From the NCBI GenBank assembly GCA_024743215.1, contig JANSWZ010000010.1, positions 1-64,000 of the forward strand: a DNA stretch of 64,000 nucleotides, in the 5' to 3' direction. The notes below the pieces were generated by a model. The model did not search any database. It saw only the letters and a program-made list of their open reading frames with translations, and was not told the DNA's origin. The position numbers and the translations under genes were made by a program. Shown here piece after piece: positions 57,602 through 64,000 of the stretch (position 1 is its first letter; the number at the start of each line of letters is the position of its first letter). The DNA comes from Alphaproteobacteria bacterium. GTDB lineage: Bacteria > Pseudomonadota > Alphaproteobacteria > Rhizobiales > GCA-2746425.

Positions 57602-57676
57602 GCCGCAGTAGCTCAGTGGTAGAGCGCGTCATTGGTAATGACGAGGTCGGGAGTTCAATCCTCCCCTGCGGCACCA
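57602..57676 (+). tRNA. tRNA-Thr (GGT)
   Basis: Complete cloverleaf with encoded CCA. Acceptor GCCGCAG pairs with CTGCGGC, the D arm is GCTC-AGTGGTA-GAGC, the anticodon stem-loop is CGTCA-TTGGTAA-TGACG (anticodon GGT), and the T arm is CGGGAG-TTCAATC-CTCCC type. It marks the right end of the housekeeping block; accessory genes start less than 100 bp downstream. Confidence 0.95.
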
Positions 57677-57764
57677 TTTTCCCACATAATATCAATACGT
57701 TGTGTGCAGGTGTGTTGCCGTCTCCAGATTAATTTGCGCAACGGCAGGTCAACTGACAAAGCGA

Positions 57765-58904
57765 CTAGTTGCTGATTTCGGTATAAAGCGTCTCGAATTG
57801 CTTCAGATTTTCCGGGATGCCGTCAATGCCCAGACCCGCTGTGGCGCTACATTCCCACATGCCGTCCGACACTGGCTCCTTGTCACCAAAGAAACACGTT
57901 CGTAGCGGGTTGTCATTTACGTCCACTTCCAGAAGCCCGTCCCCCCCAACGCCAGCCAACAATTCTGCCGAAGCGGACATGCCGATCCCTGCGCCAAGAA
58001 AGTGGGGGAAATAGCGGCGACCATTCACATGCGCGTTCCTTGCCACGGCCAGGCATCCGGTAATACCACCCCATTTTGCCACGTCGGGTTGAATGACTGA
58101 CAGATGGCCTGCATTAATTGCCAGGTCGAAATCCGCTTCTCCGATGATATTCTCTCCACCCGCAAGCGGGATCGCGGTGTGCTCGGCGAGGGCCTGCCAT
58201 TGCGATATGTCAGTGAAAACGGGCAACGGCTCCTCCAGCCAATGGAGCGGAACATCTGCGACGCCTGTCACAAACTCCCGCGCTTGCTCCAAAGACCACG
58301 CCTGGTTGGCATCGCAGGCGATCAACTCGTACTCGGCCAATCCAGCCTGAATGTGGTGGACGGCGGCGATGTCGGCCTCCATGTCGAAGCCCACTTTCAA
58401 CTTGAAGCGCTGGTGCCCATCTGCGCGCGCGCGCGGCATCAAGTCGCTTGCGGCAGCAATCTGGATGCCACTGGCATAGGCTGGTACGCGGTCTGGCGCA
58501 TCAGCACGAATCAGGCGGCGCAACGGCAGATCTGCACGCCGCGCGACCATGTCCCAAAGCGCGATATCCAACCCTGCGACGACCTGCGCAAAGGGGCCAA
58601 CCTCGCCACATTGCACAGCGCGTATCCGTGTCTGAGAATCAAGCTTGTGAAAAAAATCGGTTGGTGAGGTCGCCTGCGTGGAAAGAGCCAGATGTGCCAC
58701 ATCCATTTCAAGAAGACGCACGCGATGTTCGGCCCCCGCTGCAGGCCAGTTGGTCCATATCTCGCCCCAACCGAAAGCGCCATCATGATCTTCGACCCGC
58801 ACCAGAACAGCCGGTCGGTCGTGCATAACACCAAAAGACGTCGCAACGGGTTTTGGCGTTGGGCTACGAAACGCCCAAGCTTGAATACGGGCAATATTGA
58901 TCAT
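57765..58904 (-). CDS. Enolase-superfamily enzyme, mandelate racemase type
   Basis: A 379-residue enzyme with the capping domain (1-125) and (beta/alpha)7beta barrel. Catalytic K168/K170 (FKLKVGF), metal ligands D198 (CDANQAW), E224 (WLEEPL) and E251 (GGENI), and the His-Asp dyad D274 (QPDVAKWGG) and H301 (FPHFLGAG) match the mandelate racemase subgroup. These enzymes abstract a proton next to a carboxylate and then racemise or dehydrate, usually acid sugars. The ATG at 58904 overlaps the stop of the GntR gene (ATGA), so the pair is coupled. The substrate is unknown; context suggests a hydroxy acid made by the divergent oxidation genes. Confidence 0.88.
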   Translation of the reverse strand: MINIARIQAWAFRSPTPKPVATSFGVMHDRPAVLVRVEDHDGAFGWGEIWTNWPAAGAEHRVRLLEMDVAHLALSTQATSPTDFFHKLDSQTRIRAVQCGEVGPFAQVVAGLDIALWDMVARRADLPLRRLIRADAPDRVPAYASGIQIAAASDLMPRARADGHQRFKLKVGFDMEADIAAVHHIQAGLAEYELIACDANQAWSLEQAREFVTGVADVPLHWLEEPLPVFTDISQWQALAEHTAIPLAGGENIIGEADFDLAINAGHLSVIQPDVAKWGGITGCLAVARNAHVNGRRYFPHFLGAGIGMSASAELLAGVGGDGLLEVDVNDNPLRTCFFGDKEPVSDGMWECSATAGLGIDGIPENLKQFETLYTEISN

Positions 58905-59629
58905 GGCAAAAGATCCATTTCCAGACAAACAAAGTCACTTCGGTATGTGACATCCGCAAGATAGATCACGCGATCATCGCGGTCGCAGATAACGCGCCGC
59001 ACTTCGACCACGGGGTCACCAACCTGGAGGCTGAGCAACCCAGCCAGATTGTAGTCGCATTTGCCTATCGTCATCGACTGACGCGCCCGAGCCACATCGA
59101 TATCTTCGGAATCAACCAGCACCGGCAAGGCAAGTTGGGTTCTGAATTCAACTTCGTGACTGCTAAACACCTCTTTATCGAAGTAAATCGAGATGACGCA
59201 ATAAGTGTCGCCTTCGTGCGAATGTGTCCGCTGCAAAAGATGATAACCATTGTCCGATATCTCGCCAATCAAAGGCTTGCCTGGAATTTCGGCATCACGG
59301 TCTTCCAGGAGATCAAGTGCAGGTTGGTCGCCACGATAATGATCGACCAACGTGGATAGACGTGTGCCGAGATGCAATCGATCTCTCACGGGAGGTGGCG
59401 GCAAGACAGTTGTTCCGCGCCCACGTCGCGATTCCAGCAACCCCTCTTCCTCAAGTATCTTTACCGCCTGACGTATGGTGATTTTCCCGACCGAATATTC
59501 CGCGGAAAGCTCAGTAATTGTTGGCAGTAGATCACCTGTTTTCCAAACACCGCGATCCAGATTTTGGTGCAGTATTTCGGCGATCTGTAAATAAAGAGGG
59601 GATCGGCTTTGCCGAAGCGTGTCTTTCAT
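58901..59629 (-). CDS. GntR-family regulator with UTRA domain (HutC type)
   Basis: A 242-residue regulator. The winged HTH spans about 10-75 (LYLQIAEILHQNLDRGVWKTGDLLPTITELSAEYSVGKITIRQAVKILEEEGLL), and the UTRA effector domain covers 95-240 (YCVISIYFDKEVFSS, VRRVICDRDDRVIYLADVTYRSDFV). I start at ATG 59629, which has AGGAG upstream; a GTG at 59641 falls too close to that site. UTRA proteins sense small metabolites of the pathway they control. Mirrored operator half-sites in the gap to the GMC gene point to joint control of both directions. Confidence 0.9.
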   Translation of the reverse strand: MKDTLRQSRSPLYLQIAEILHQNLDRGVWKTGDLLPTITELSAEYSVGKITIRQAVKILEEEGLLESRRGRGTTVLPPPPVRDRLHLGTRLSTLVDHYRGDQPALDLLEDRDAEIPGKPLIGEISDNGYHLLQRTHSHEGDTYCVISIYFDKEVFSSHEVEFRTQLALPVLVDSEDIDVARARQSMTIGKCDYNLAGLLSLQVGDPVVEVRRVICDRDDRVIYLADVTYRSDFVCLEMDLLP

Positions 59630-59654
59630 ATCTGAAATCACTCCTATAAGTCCT

Positions 59655-59671
59655 AAAGTTCTACATATAGA
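59655..59671 (-). promoter_or_regulatory. Mirror operator, GntR side
   Basis: AAAGTTCTACATATAGA, with an internal dyad TTCTA-CATA-TAGAA at 59659-59672. It matches 14 of 17 positions of the reverse complement of 59707-59723 and lies 26 bp before the GntR ATG. Confidence 0.6.
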
Positions 59672-59706
59672 ATTTTTTGTTGCGATGCTAGTGAGTTTCG
59701 ATTAGT

Positions 59707-59723
59707 CTTATATATAGAACTTT
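59707..59723 (+). promoter_or_regulatory. Mirror operator, GMC oxidoreductase side
   Basis: CTTATATATAGAACTTT, reverse-complement partner (14 of 17) of 59655-59671, 14 bp before the GTG start of the GMC gene. TATATA within it could be the -10 region, so binding would block the promoter. Confidence 0.6.
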
Positions 59724-59736
59724 TCGTGAGGGCTAT

Positions 59737-61383
59737 GTGGCTGGCTTTGATTACATCATTATTGGATCGGGAACGGCCGGTGCCACTCTGGCCGCCCGTT
59801 TGTCCGAAGATGAATCGGCTCAGGTCCTGGTTCTTGAAGGTGGTGGCGCTGATCGGAACTTCTGGCTGAAGCTGCCTGTTGGCTACTATAAGTCGATCTA
59901 TGGCAACCGAGCTTCGCACCTCTATCGTGGTGACCCGGACCCGGGCATCGCCGGGCGTCAGATGGACTGCCCGCGTGGACGGGTGGTCGGCGGATCGAGT
60001 TCGATCAATGGGTTGATTTATATTCGGGGACAGCAGGAAGACTACAATGATTGGGAAGCTCTTGGGGCTGACGGCTGGTCGTTCCAAGACGTATTGCCGC
60101 ATTTTAGATCCCTTGAGACCTATGCCGGTCCGCCGTCGCAATTTCGCGGCGCGCATGGGCCTTTGCAGATTTCGGATCTCCGCAATGATAATGCCGCCTG
60201 TAGTGATTGGTTAGAGGCGGCCATGGCTTTTGGGCTGCCATCGAACGACGATTTTAACAGTGAGAGCACACATGGCGTCGGAGCTTATCAACTGACGTTG
60301 CGGGGGCGATGGCGTGATAGTGCGGCCACGGCCTTCTTGCGCCCGGCACTGCAGCGACCGAATCTGACGTTAAAAACCAACGCACATGTAACATCATTGG
60401 TCTTCACTGGTGCGCGTGCCACCGGCGTAAACTATGTCAAAGATGGCGAAACACATGAGGTTCACGCCGACTGCGAGGTCATTCTTTGTGGTGGATCGGT
60501 TCAGTCGCCGCAACTGTTGCAATTGTCCGGGATCGGACCTGCCGATCTTTTGCGGGAACACGGCATAAAGGTCCGTCACGATGCACCGGAGGTCGGAGAA
60601 AATCTTCAGGACCATCTGCAGATGCGTACGATTGTGGAGTTGAGTGAGCGCGGCGCGTCACTCAATGATCACATGCGCAATCCATTTGCCTTGGCAAAAA
60701 TGGGGTTGGAGTGGTTGCTGCATTCACGCGGGCCCCTCACTGTGGGTGCCGGACAGGTGGGCGGTGCAGCCTGTACCAAATACGCTGAAGGCGGACGCCC
60801 AGACCTGCAATTATTCGTCATGCCGCTGTCCGTCGACAAGCCTGGTAAGCCTCTGCACCGTTACTCCGGTTTCACAACTTCCTTCTGGCAGTGCCATCCG
60901 GAAAGCCGCGGTTCGGTGCAGATAGCAAATACCGATCCCTTCGCCGACCCTTGCATAAAAACCAACTATCTGTCTGCTGAGAAGGATCAAAAGGTCATTG
61001 TCGAAGGTCTCCGCATGGTGCGTGAATTGTACAACCGGCCAGAATTCCGTCAGCGATGGCAGCGCGAGGCCGTGCCCGGTGCAGAACATCAAAGTGATGC
61101 CGATTTGCTTTCAGCCGTGCGGCAGATGGCCGGAACGGTCTATCACCTGGTTGGTACCTGCCGCATGGGGGCGGACGCGCGCGCCGTAGTTGACCCGAAG
61201 TTGCGGGTGAACGGTGTCGATGGGTTACGCGTCGTCGATGCCTCCATCATGCCTCGCATCACCTCGGCCAACACCAACGCGCCCACTTACATGATTGCGG
61301 AAAAAGCGGCGGCGATGATCCGCGCGGACGCGGACATAACGGAACAAACTCAGAAACTGGACATTACAACCTATGCCAATTGA
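59737..61383 (+). CDS. GMC-family FAD alcohol dehydrogenase (choline-dehydrogenase-like)
   Basis: A 548-residue GMC oxidoreductase. FAD-binding GSGTAGATLAARLSE starts at residue 10; GRVVGGSSSINGLIYIRG is the first GMC signature (about 85-102); SPQLLQLSGIGPADLL is the second. The active-site pair is His in VYHLVGTCRMG and Asn in NTNAPTYMIAEKAA. It oxidises a primary alcohol to an aldehyde and passes electrons to a quinone or cytochrome. The start is GTG at 59737 with GAGGG five bases upstream. It overlaps the aldehyde dehydrogenase gene by 11 bp. Confidence 0.92.
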   Translation: MAGFDYIIIGSGTAGATLAARLSEDESAQVLVLEGGGADRNFWLKLPVGYYKSIYGNRASHLYRGDPDPGIAGRQMDCPRGRVVGGSSSINGLIYIRGQQEDYNDWEALGADGWSFQDVLPHFRSLETYAGPPSQFRGAHGPLQISDLRNDNAACSDWLEAAMAFGLPSNDDFNSESTHGVGAYQLTLRGRWRDSAATAFLRPALQRPNLTLKTNAHVTSLVFTGARATGVNYVKDGETHEVHADCEVILCGGSVQSPQLLQLSGIGPADLLREHGIKVRHDAPEVGENLQDHLQMRTIVELSERGASLNDHMRNPFALAKMGLEWLLHSRGPLTVGAGQVGGAACTKYAEGGRPDLQLFVMPLSVDKPGKPLHRYSGFTTSFWQCHPESRGSVQIANTDPFADPCIKTNYLSAEKDQKVIVEGLRMVRELYNRPEFRQRWQREAVPGAEHQSDADLLSAVRQMAGTVYHLVGTCRMGADARAVVDPKLRVNGVDGLRVVDASIMPRITSANTNAPTYMIAEKAAAMIRADADITEQTQKLDITTYAN

Positions 61384-62761
61384 AATTCGAAATCCTGCCG
61401 CCCCAGACGACATTGTTGCAACTTACGACGAAACGCCCGCCAGTGCACTGGATGCTCATGTCGCACATGCGCGCAAGGCGCAGTTTGACTGGGCAGCAAT
61501 TCCGCAGCCAGAACGGGGCGCGATGGTTGCCAGATACGTTGATGCGTTGGAAGCCCGGGCCGAGAATATCGCCATGTCTATCACCAGGGAGATGGGCAAG
61601 CCGCTGGCTGAGTCCCGCGGCGAAGTTGCCAAAGCGATCGGCGAAGCACGCGCATGCATCGGTCGGGCCAGCGCCCCAATTGGCGAGGTTTTCCCATCAC
61701 AAGTTCCAGGAACGGTTGCTTATTCGACCCGTCGTCCACGCGGGGTGGTACTTGGTATTAATCCGTGGAACTTCCCGTTTAGCACACCCATGCGCAAGGC
61801 CATTCCGGCACTTGTTTATGGGAACGCCATCATCCTTAAACCCGCCTCTCTGACGCCAGGGGCGATTGTGCTGATGGCTGAAATTGCAGCCGAAATCTTA
61901 CCTGCAAATCTTGTGCAGGCGATCATTGGTGGTGGAGCTTTGGGGCAGGCCCTGTCCGAGCACACAGGCGTTGATGCGATCAGCTTCACCGGCTCAGTTG
62001 ATGTTGGTAAGCGCGTCGCCAAGGCCGCTGCGGGGCATTTAGCCGAAGTATCGCTGGAACTGGGCGGAAAGAACCCAGCAATATTGAATGATGCCAGCGA
62101 TATGGACAAAGCGCTTGATCAGATCATGGCGTCGGCTTTCGCTGTTTGCGGTCAGCGATGCACGGCTGTCAGCCGTGTCATCGTCCATCGCTCTCTTGAA
62201 GAAAAAGCCGTATCTGGCTTGGCAGAGCGCGCAGATGCCATGCAACCGATGGATGGCGCAGCAGATGGTGCAAAAATTGGTCCGCTGTCCAGCATGCAAC
62301 AGCTTGAGGATGTCTCTGGTTTTGTCTCGCGTGCAACGCAAGAAGGCGCGTTCATTGCGGCAGGTGGCAGAAAACTAGACACAGCGACAGGTGGATATTT
62401 TTATGCACCAACGATCCTTTCCGGTGTCACCAGGGGCATGGAAGTCGCTCGTGATGAGGTCTTCGGCCCAGTCCTGTCAGTGATTGCCTATGACACGGTG
62501 GATGAGGCGTTAAGCATCGCCAATGACATCGCATTCGGATTGTCGTCCTGCCTGTATTCTGAGCGCACAGATATCGTCGAACGTTTCGTTGCCGAAAGCG
62601 AAAGCGGCATGTTGCATGTTAACTCTGGCAGTTTCCCGGAAAACCATCTGCCTTTCGTCGGCGTCAAAGACAGTGCCATGGGCGTTGGCGGGTCGAACGG
62701 CCCCTCAACCATCCAGTTCTACACCACTGAGCACACGGTCTATCGCCGGGCGACTGTCTGA
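61373..62761 (+). CDS. NAD(P)-dependent aldehyde dehydrogenase (succinate-semialdehyde type)
   Basis: A 462-residue ALDH of the short succinate-semialdehyde dehydrogenase branch. N133 (NPWNFPF), K156 (LKPASLTP), general base E229 (LELGGKNP) and nucleophile C263 (CGQRCTA) are all present. It oxidises an aldehyde to the acid. Eleven-base overlap with the GMC oxidoreductase gene implies sequential action on the same substrate. The sulfatase gene starts ten bases downstream. Confidence 0.92.
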   Translation: MPIEIRNPAAPDDIVATYDETPASALDAHVAHARKAQFDWAAIPQPERGAMVARYVDALEARAENIAMSITREMGKPLAESRGEVAKAIGEARACIGRASAPIGEVFPSQVPGTVAYSTRRPRGVVLGINPWNFPFSTPMRKAIPALVYGNAIILKPASLTPGAIVLMAEIAAEILPANLVQAIIGGGALGQALSEHTGVDAISFTGSVDVGKRVAKAAAGHLAEVSLELGGKNPAILNDASDMDKALDQIMASAFAVCGQRCTAVSRVIVHRSLEEKAVSGLAERADAMQPMDGAADGAKIGPLSSMQQLEDVSGFVSRATQEGAFIAAGGRKLDTATGGYFYAPTILSGVTRGMEVARDEVFGPVLSVIAYDTVDEALSIANDIAFGLSSCLYSERTDIVERFVAESESGMLHVNSGSFPENHLPFVGVKDSAMGVGGSNGPSTIQFYTTEHTVYRRATV

Positions 62762-62771
62762 GGAACCGTTT

Positions 62772-64000
62772 ATGACTGACAAACCAAACATCTTGATGAT
62801 CATGGCAGACCAGTTGGCTCCACAGGCGTTGCCATTTTATGGCAACACCGTGTGCAAAACGCCAAACCTCGACAGATTGGCGGCAGACAGCGTGCTCTTT
62901 GAAAACGCATACTGCAATTATCCACTTTGTGTTCCCTCGCGCGCCTCGATGATGTCGGGTCGATTAACACCGTCAATCGACGTCTGGGACAATGCCTGCG
63001 AGTTGGCATCCAGTCAGCCAACCATGGCCCACCAGATGCGCCATCTGGGTTATCACACTGTTCTATCGGGCAAGATGCACTTCATCGGACCTGACCAGTT
63101 GCACGGTTTTGACGAGCGAACCGTTACAGATGTGTACCCGTCGGAATTCGATTGGGTCGCAGACTGGCAAGCGGGGCCAGCTTTTGTGCCTTCGGCTACG
63201 GGTATGAACGGTGTGGTCGAAGCGGGTTCAGCGTCGCGGACTTTGCAAGAAGACTTTGACGAGGAAGTCGCCCATTGCACCGTGCAGACTATCTATGATC
63301 TTGCGCGGCGCGGCGCAGATGCAGGACCTTGGTTTCAAGTCGCGTCACTCACCTGTCCGCACACACCATTTGTCGCGGATCAACAGTACTGGGACCGCTA
63401 TGATCCAGACGAAATCGATGCTCCAACGGTAGGGGGCCTGGCCTTTGACGATCTCGACTATGCATCGCGTGCTCTGTTCTTTGCCCATGGGCGGCATCGA
63501 CATCGTGTAACCGCCGATGACCTGCGTCGCGCGAGGCATGGGTACTATGCAATGATCTCGTTCGTCGACGATAAAGTGGGTGAAATTCTGGCGGCTCTGG
63601 AGGCCAGCGGACAAGCTGACAACACCGTGATTATCTTCTGTGCCGACCATGGCGAGATGCTGGGCGAGCGTGGTATGTGGTTTAAGCAAAGCTTCTACGA
63701 ATGGTCGGCACGAATTCCGCTGTTGATCTCTGCGCCTGAACGATATGCGCCACGGCGGGTCAAGGAGTGTGCCTCGCTGGTAGATCTGCTGCCAACGCTG
63801 GTAGGAATCGGTGGCGGAGAGGTGACATTGGCTTGCGATGGCGAGAGCCTGGAACCTGCGTTGACTGGTGGTTCGATCCGCGATCTGGTGGTCTCGGATT
63901 ACTCTGGTATCGGACCCTGTGTTCCCCACCGTATGGTTCGACAGGGGCAGTTCAAGCTGATCTATACGCATGGTCATCCCGATCTGCTGTTTGATCTTGA
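62772..64000 (+). CDS. Choline-sulfatase-like sulfatase, 3' end cut by window
   Basis: The frame is open from ATG 62772 to the window edge (about 409 residues). It is a type I sulfatase: D13 (MADQ) binds calcium, and C53-V-P-S-R57 is the motif in which the cysteine is converted to formylglycine. LSGKMHFIGPDQLHGFDERTVTDVYPSEF and DDKVGEILAALE...FCADHGEMLGERGMWFKQSFYEWSARIPL follow choline sulfatase BetC closely. No signal peptide, so cytoplasmic hydrolysis of an alcohol sulfate ester is expected. It is third in the unit GMC oxidoreductase - ALDH - sulfatase, an order reminiscent of betCBA but with a GntR regulator in place of BetI and an SSADH-like ALDH. Confidence 0.9.
   Translation, partial: MTDKPNILMIMADQLAPQALPFYGNTVCKTPNLDRLAADSVLFENAYCNYPLCVPSRASMMSGRLTPSIDVWDNACELASSQPTMAHQMRHLGYHTVLSGKMHFIGPDQLHGFDERTVTDVYPSEFDWVADWQAGPAFVPSATGMNGVVEAGSASRTLQEDFDEEVAHCTVQTIYDLARRGADAGPWFQVASLTCPHTPFVADQQYWDRYDPDEIDAPTVGGLAFDDLDYASRALFFAHGRHRHRVTADDLRRARHGYYAMISFVDDKVGEILAALEASGQADNTVIIFCADHGEMLGERGMWFKQSFYEWSARIPLLISAPERYAPRRVKECASLVDLLPTLVGIGGGEVTLACDGESLEPALTGGSIRDLVVSDYSGIGPCVPHRMVRQGQFKLIYTHGHPDLLFDL

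Follow-up and report, generated by a model that had tools for sequence, protein, structure and literature searches.

Sulfate esters form a sizeable share of marine organic matter, and to our knowledge bacterial pathways have been described for few small sulfate esters apart from choline sulfate. Going by the sections of the reports cited here, the described systems closest to the locus of this study include betABC of Ruegeria pomeroyi (PMC4744692); slfRCHSL of the Psychrobacter plasmid pP62BP1, a putative operon for alkyl sulfate, an ester other than choline sulfate (PMC3346939); and TaoA/TaoB of TRIS degradation, in which a GMC enzyme that does not group with the choline dehydrogenases acts with an aldehyde dehydrogenase (ALDH) to oxidise another hydroxymethyl compound (PMC10848231). 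In this study, we analysed a divergent gene cluster at the right end of a 64,000-base stretch of alphaproteobacterial DNA (the window; bases 1-64,000 of contig JANSWZ010000010.1, hereafter C16, of 195,788 bases, in a genome of 5.09 Mb). Its gene families and their catalytic residues, the loss of the choline clamp from two sulfatases, the conserved gene order, paired palindromes, and a variable genomic location suggest that the cluster is probably a catabolic operon pair for the uptake and breakdown of a small sulfate ester other than choline sulfate.

Organization of the gene cluster

The cluster adjoins a tRNA-Thr gene and consists of two divergent, tightly packed units separated by a spacer of 95 bases (59642-59736). 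An enolase-superfamily enzyme (MLE) and a GntR/UTRA regulator are encoded leftward, and the GMC enzyme, the ALDH, and a sulfatase (S1) rightward. GntR and MLE overlap by 4 bases (ATGA, with the MLE ATG over the GntR stop) and GMC and ALDH by 11 bases, and 10 bases lie between ALDH and S1. The forward unit continues beyond the window with three more genes. The features are as follows, those right of the window with the prefix C16.

57602..57676, + strand: tRNA-Thr(GGT), found with ARAGORN; left boundary
57765..58904, - strand: MLE, enolase-superfamily enzyme of mandelate-racemase type (PF13378 151 bits, PF02746 46.5 bits)
58901..59641, - strand: GntR-family regulator with UTRA ligand domain (PF00392 64.2 bits, PF07702 41.4 bits)
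59658..59673: palindrome 1, GTTCTACATATAGAAT, candidate GntR operator, conserved and paired
59705..59720: palindrome 2, GTCTTATATATAGAAC, candidate GntR operator, 47 bp from palindrome 1
59737..61383, + strand: GMC flavin alcohol oxidoreductase, GTG start (PF00732 166.9 bits, PF05199 138.6 bits)
61373..62761, + strand: NAD(P)-type ALDH (PF00171 448.5 bits)
62772..64000, ending at C16:64394, + strand: S1, formylglycine-type sulfatase (PF00884, TIGR03417)
C16:64505-66463, forward unit: TRAP DctM permease (PF06808 281.9 bits)
C16 about 66444-67421, forward unit: TAXI binding protein (PF16868 205.6 bits)
C16:67488-69050, forward unit: S2, second sulfatase (PF00884, TIGR03417)

The initial annotation had placed the five window genes under the GntR regulator as one set; all five are present, each above its Pfam cut-off, and the partners recur in 16 close loci described below. 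Its proposal to look rightward for a transporter was also borne out, as the PF16868 binding protein lies next to the PF06808 DctM permease and solved TAXI relatives exist, which identifies a TAXI-type TRAP transporter. AlphaFold models were too poor for a structure search, with a mean pLDDT of 50.6 for the TAXI protein (7 rows) and 35.9 for a DctP protein (3 rows), the latter being from sulfatase-free relatives; the PDB names of the DctP relatives indicated no ligand. A PEP-mutase/isocitrate-lyase-type gene follows S2 at C16:69295-70413 and was not seen as a conserved partner. Promoter and terminator scans gave results near chance.

Sulfatases without the choline clamp

S1 and S2 scored 556.6 and 565.6 bits, respectively, against TIGR03417 (choline sulfatase; SulfAtlas S1_12; cut-off 433.45 bits), and the solved choline sulfatases are their nearest structures (about 40-44% identity). 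Residues were compared in an alignment on the choline sulfatase SmCS with 14 S1-type and 8 S2-type rows. The equivalents of the catalytic set of SmCS (C54, R58, N75, K102, H104, H201, and K309) are kept in every row of both types. The WWYHN hairpin (142-146) is replaced by PSATG in 13 of the 14 S1 rows, by PSVTG in the S1 row of locus L080, and by PSVMS in all eight S2 rows; furthermore, Glu386 is replaced by Ile in all 14 S1 rows. In the section consulted of PMC9063841, Trp129 and His145, within a hairpin of the form GW-X13-WYHN, are named as the residues binding choline, and that of PMC5870055 gives Glu386 a role in quaternary ammonium recognition and reports it as fully conserved in choline sulfatases; in these sections the two papers disagree on the role of Glu/Asp386. 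Judging from the aligned residues, neither S1 nor S2 looks like a true BetC; both look like choline-sulfatase-like enzymes without the choline clamp.

The sulfatase tree contained 30 rows (10 of S1, 3 of S2, 9 clamp-bearing sulfatases including SmCS, and others ungrouped). S1 and S2 each formed a clade with support of 100/100, separate from the nine clamp-bearing sulfatases (93/85); the ungrouped rows fall among the three groups and several branches are long. A single clade of all three groups was rejected (p-AU 2.5e-5), with ungrouped rows lying among them, and this result was not used.

When 190 alphaproteobacterial genomes were surveyed with TIGR03417 (loci L149-L172, L012, and L013), 26 proteins exceeded the cut-off, of which 17 carry an aromatic-aromatic-His motif at positions 143-145 and 9 do not. 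All of these nine score 637 bits or less, and they include both sulfatases of the window genome and both cluster sulfatases of G449, an alphaproteobacterium outside the order. G449 has S1 and S2 in a cluster of the present kind and, elsewhere, a canonical betA-betB-betC set whose BetC bears the hairpin and is 72% identical to SmCS; it is the cleanest control, since clampless S1 and S2 and a hairpin-bearing BetC occur in one genome. Among the matches listed, 14 of 20 records of sulfatase relatives carry a betC label. With 9 of 26 above-cut-off matches clampless, the choline-sulfatase label is applied too freely and the TIGR03417 cut-off looks too permissive.

The hairpin is also absent from the sulfatase relatives on plasmids of Cupriavidus sp. 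EM10 and Leisingera thetidis. The S1-like sulfatase of Cupriavidus (48.6%) directly follows a GMC gene (48.1%) at 2275598-2278924 of its plasmid (L217, H17, H40), where the record carries no gene annotation. On plasmid p3 of Azospirillum brasilense (59359-60882, L219), a betC-labelled S1 relative (48.8% identity), in which the hairpin is partly retained (Trp143 and His145), lies amid taurine-type ABC genes and TauD dioxygenases. The intermediate sulfatase loci L177-L183 gave no clear hint of a substrate.

S1 starts with MTDKPNILMIMADQ and S2 with MKRPNILVIQADQ; by eye neither has a signal-like start, and on this ground both are read as probably cytoplasmic. The window genome has a single FGE gene, on a different contig from the cluster, so its formylglycine sulfatases can presumably be matured. 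The same genome (G000) has 28 PF00884 sulfatase matches to this one FGE; two of the matches may represent one gene (C14:121588-122742).

GMC, ALDH, and MLE enzymes

The GMC enzyme scored below the cut-offs of both BetA-type models, namely TIGR01810 (480.4 vs 732.1) and PRK02106 (544.3 vs 605). In a tree of 26 rows, 17 GMC proteins encoded beside MLE genes, with the window enzyme among them, formed a clade (100/99) outside the four BetA rows (100/100), suggesting that the window enzyme is not BetA. The initial annotation had named placement within tight BetC and BetA clades as the sequence part of an outcome that would overturn its proposal; S1, S2, and GMC all fall outside. A true betA (853.6 bits, above the cut-off) is located 41 kb to the right of the cluster. 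At C16:102608-109469 (L011), it has betB-, betI-, and choX-type neighbours, these three assigned by resemblance, and no betC beside it.

For the ALDH, no NCBIfam cut-off was reached among the matches listed (25 of 43 families), and the best equivalog among them gave 377.7 bits against a cut-off of 770; its previous description as SSADH-like is therefore not specifically upheld. Its score against BetB (TIGR01804) was 325.5 bits, below the cut-off of 668.6.

The closest solved structure to MLE (query 57765-58910, two extra codons) is 3ddm (336.6 bits), which has no assigned function, and the top NCBIfam match is talarate/galactarate dehydratase at 110 bits against a cut-off of 500. The residue set KxK, D, E, E, D, H, and E is conserved in 57 aligned homologues, with Arg as the second lysine in two. 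MLE has the KxK motif, metal ligands, and His-Asp dyad that define the mandelate racemase subgroup, and we presume that KxK, the D/E/E ligands, the dyad, and the Glu have the same roles as there.

UxaA/GarD-type dehydratases adjoin MLE relatives in four loci (L057, L060, L063, and L115), L-arabinonate-type dehydratases do so in Salipiger and Paracoccus, and fumarate-hydratase-type genes in Sulfitobacter. With a further dehydratase so commonly adjacent, MLE itself may act as an epimerase instead of a dehydratase; the sequence does not decide between the two. A Bradyrhizobium plasmid carries MLE-GMC-GntR with FGE, an arylsulfatase, and sugar ABC genes within a few genes' distance, and L069 and L076 have MLE paralogues next to other sulfatases. 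It is mainly this recurrence of MLE relatives with acid-processing, sulfatase, and sugar genes that makes us lean to a polyhydroxylated sulfate ester, which the sugar-acid and carbohydrate gene ties in other loci would favour.

A second type of MLE paralogue was seen at L076:5533-14836 and L069:6820-16371, with a UxaA-type dehydratase and several sulfatases as neighbours. In L076, which belongs to a genome of the same genus (G115), LarB- and LarC-type genes are present too, along with LarA- and LarE-like genes recognised by eye (the two tested had no Pfam match), which suggests a nickel-pincer racemase in that sulfatase cluster.

Conservation, regulation, and genomic location

When named genomes were scanned with MLE, 72 loci were obtained, and 16 of them (L077-L092; MLE 70-83% identical) form the close set. 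GntR and GMC lie beside MLE in 15 of them, the exception being L083, where the contig stops at MLE. S1 is present in 12 (contig ends truncate L083 and L088), DctM and TAXI (81-89% identity) in 10, S2 in 8, and ALDH in 7; some of the gaps are due to contig or locus ends (L082, L083, L086, L088, and L090). L091 has no S2 and carries a different sulfatase and a different TAXI/DctM pair. Six loci (L078-L081, L084, and L089) have a ROK-family regulator and no ALDH, and ROK regulators occur in nine loci altogether. The conserved order in the named loci and G449 is MLE-GntR // GMC-(ALDH)-S1-(ROK regulator)-DctM-TAXI-S2, an arrangement recurring in Rhodobacterales, Pelagibius litoralis, and G449. G449 carries every member in this order, ROK included, and has an FGE relative beyond MLE. 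FGE relatives (open reading frame cluster c17) lie beside MLE in L077, L082, L085, L091, and L174; the Pfam check, which covered L069 and L091, confirmed FGE for L091. No paper on this cluster was found in the literature searched, outside subscription journals.

The spacer between GntR and GMC contains a pair of 16-base palindromes that follow the form GTYCTANNNNTAGRAC with one mismatch each and are placed 47 bases apart. At up to one mismatch, the window has 2 matches against 0.04 expected. With an extended form at up to two mismatches, the whole genome has these two sites only, whereas a backward-read control pattern has 35. Among 19 divergent GntR-GMC spacers, at up to three mismatches, at least one site was found in 18 and at least two in 15 (2.88 and 0.25 in shuffles, respectively); because the pattern was drawn by eye from the same spacers, finding it there is in part circular, and close relatives make up most of the set. 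The spacer of L079 had no site at up to three mismatches. Stronger support comes from three diverged loci without S1 and S2 (L057, L060, and L107; GntR 42-53% identical), from the nearly constant spacing in most loci (about 46-49 bases), and from the lack of further sites in the rest of the genome. From the paired and conserved palindromes, joint control of both divergent units is likely.

The similarity by blastn to four genomes of the same genus (G080, G040, G115, and G145) ends at window positions 57677, 57702, 57677, and 57676, respectively, so that three congeners diverge at the tRNA-Thr 3' end and the fourth 26 bases further on. In G040, about 37 kb of other DNA follows the tRNA and similarity returns at C16:89728; in G080 and G115 it does not resume (54 kb read). 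The region variable within the genus extends from 57677 to about C16:89300. The best MLE match is 53% identical within the genus and 83% in Pelagibius litoralis; in one of the four congeners, no MLE reached the threshold. Horizontal acquisition would be the natural reading. Neither C16 nor the G040, G080, and G115 stretches yielded a repeat of the tRNA 3' end, and integrases were not searched for; we therefore claim a variable region and not a defined island. Two further proteins are encoded in the same variable stretch, a TPR protein with a CHAT domain and one that looks caspase-like by eye (C16:73686-76349 and 77609-79696; L009 and L010).

Proposed pathway and alternative explanations

From the gene families, we infer a transport substrate, a reaction order, the kinds of alcohol and acid formed, and a mode of regulation as follows. 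The TAXI-type TRAP transporter would import the intact anionic ester, and cytoplasmic S1 and S2 would remove sulfate, acting on two positions of a single substrate or on a pair of related ones. The freed primary alcohol would be oxidised to an aldehyde by the GMC flavin enzyme, and the aldehyde to a carboxylate by the ALDH (a different ALDH in the loci without one). MLE would then dehydrate or epimerise the hydroxy acid, which would enter central metabolism, and the GntR/UTRA protein may sense an intermediate and repress both divergent units at the twin palindromes. The initial annotation had likewise proposed a route resembling betCBA for a substrate other than choline sulfate, and it gains support from the missing choline-holding residues and from the position of the sulfatases and GMC outside the BetC and BetA groups. 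We are evenly divided over a more specific proposal, namely a pathway, absent from the literature searched, whose substrate would be a polyhydroxylated sulfate ester or one derived from a sugar, and in which clampless descendants of choline sulfatase feed a GMC-ALDH-MLE chain; such a pathway would travel among marine alphaproteobacteria, and some "choline sulfatases" would belong to such routes.

Several findings weigh against this catabolic pathway for another ester. Tyr123 and Trp129 of the choline site are kept in all S1- and S2-type rows. Glu386 is kept in the seven S2 rows that reach that position, and the Choline_sulf_C domain is matched by S2 and not by S1; with these two features, S2 could still accept a cationic ester. 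Six of the 16 close loci have GMC and S1 with no adjacent ALDH, which does not fit a fixed ALDH step, and L087 and L092 have no S1 in the stretches examined. L057, L060, and L107 have GMC, MLE, and GntR without S1- or S2-like sulfatases in the stretches examined, which uncouples the oxidative half from sulfate. The GntR ligand and operator sites are putative.

One alternative is that the sulfatases supply sulfate as a sulfur source, the carbon skeleton being incidental. The Azospirillum relative of S1, placed between taurine-type ABC genes and TauD dioxygenases, would fit such scavenging; however, its hairpin differs, with Trp143 and His145 kept, and the neighbours of the present sulfatases are oxidative, sugar-acid-type enzymes with GntR and, in nine loci, ROK regulators, not sulfur-starvation genes. 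We consider this explanation unlikely. A reversed order, with GMC and ALDH acting on the still-sulfated alcohol and desulfation following later, likewise has a small chance of being correct: the sequence fixes no order and the ALDH is missing from six loci, but relatives of GMC, ALDH, and MLE in the three loci without S1- or S2-like sulfatases suit an unsulfated substrate.

It is highly unlikely that the cluster is a second route from choline-O-sulfate to glycine betaine, a divergent betCBA. S1 and S2 do score above the choline-sulfatase cut-off, GMC and ALDH are similar to choline and betaine-aldehyde dehydrogenases, S2 retains Glu386 and Trp129, and the window genome yielded no better BetC. 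Nevertheless, the hairpin is gone from both sulfatases and Glu386 from S1, GMC lies under both BetA-type cut-offs and outside the BetA clade, MLE and a UTRA regulator are foreign to betaine synthesis, the genome already has betA above the cut-off with betB, betI, and ChoX-like neighbours, and G449 has kept both systems. MLE and ALDH beside sulfatases are also the pattern of the 3,6-anhydrogalactose pathway, but a route of this kind from agar or carrageenan, with ALDH as anhydrogalactose dehydrogenase, MLE as anhydrogalactonate cycloisomerase, and carrageenan sulfatases, is barely credible: the cycloisomerase 5xd7 is among the structure matches of MLE at 80 bits versus 336.6 for 3ddm, S1 and S2 are nearest to choline sulfatase and not to carrageenan sulfatases, and we know of no role for GMC in that route, which was set aside on the PDB ranking of MLE and the sulfatases.

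The catabolic pathway for another sulfate ester is thus the preferred reading. The conserved and probably mobile gene set, present in several marine bacteria, with two sulfatases, an importer, and three downstream enzymes, provides handles for finding the substrate.

Comparison with known systems

With the betICBA genes of Sinorhizobium meliloti and Ruegeria pomeroyi, the cluster shares a sulfatase of the same family, a GMC enzyme, and an ALDH in one unit, and an importer that feeds a cytoplasmic sulfatase. It differs in having two clampless sulfatases, a GMC enzyme that is not BetA, a UTRA-type GntR regulator instead of BetI, a TAXI-TRAP transporter, and MLE. Since defining bet features proved absent when tested, we do not file the cluster as a bet system.

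The slfRCHSL operon also combines a sulfatase, a GMC alcohol dehydrogenase, an ALDH, and a divergent regulator. Its sulfatase, however, is a secreted alkylsulfatase of the metallo-beta-lactamase type, its regulator is of the AraC family, and it includes a fatty acid-CoA ligase and, in the portion of its description cited above, neither an MLE nor a transporter. TaoA/TaoB provides a precedent for a GMC enzyme split from the choline dehydrogenases toward another alcohol, but acts on a synthetic amine and has no sulfatase or MLE in the corresponding portion. Finally, MLE resembles the acid-sugar dehydratases of the mandelate racemase subgroup, such as talarate/galactarate dehydratase, in the KxK motif, three acidic metal ligands, His-Asp dyad, and Glu, whereas it stays far below the cut-off of that family and has 3ddm as its nearest structure.

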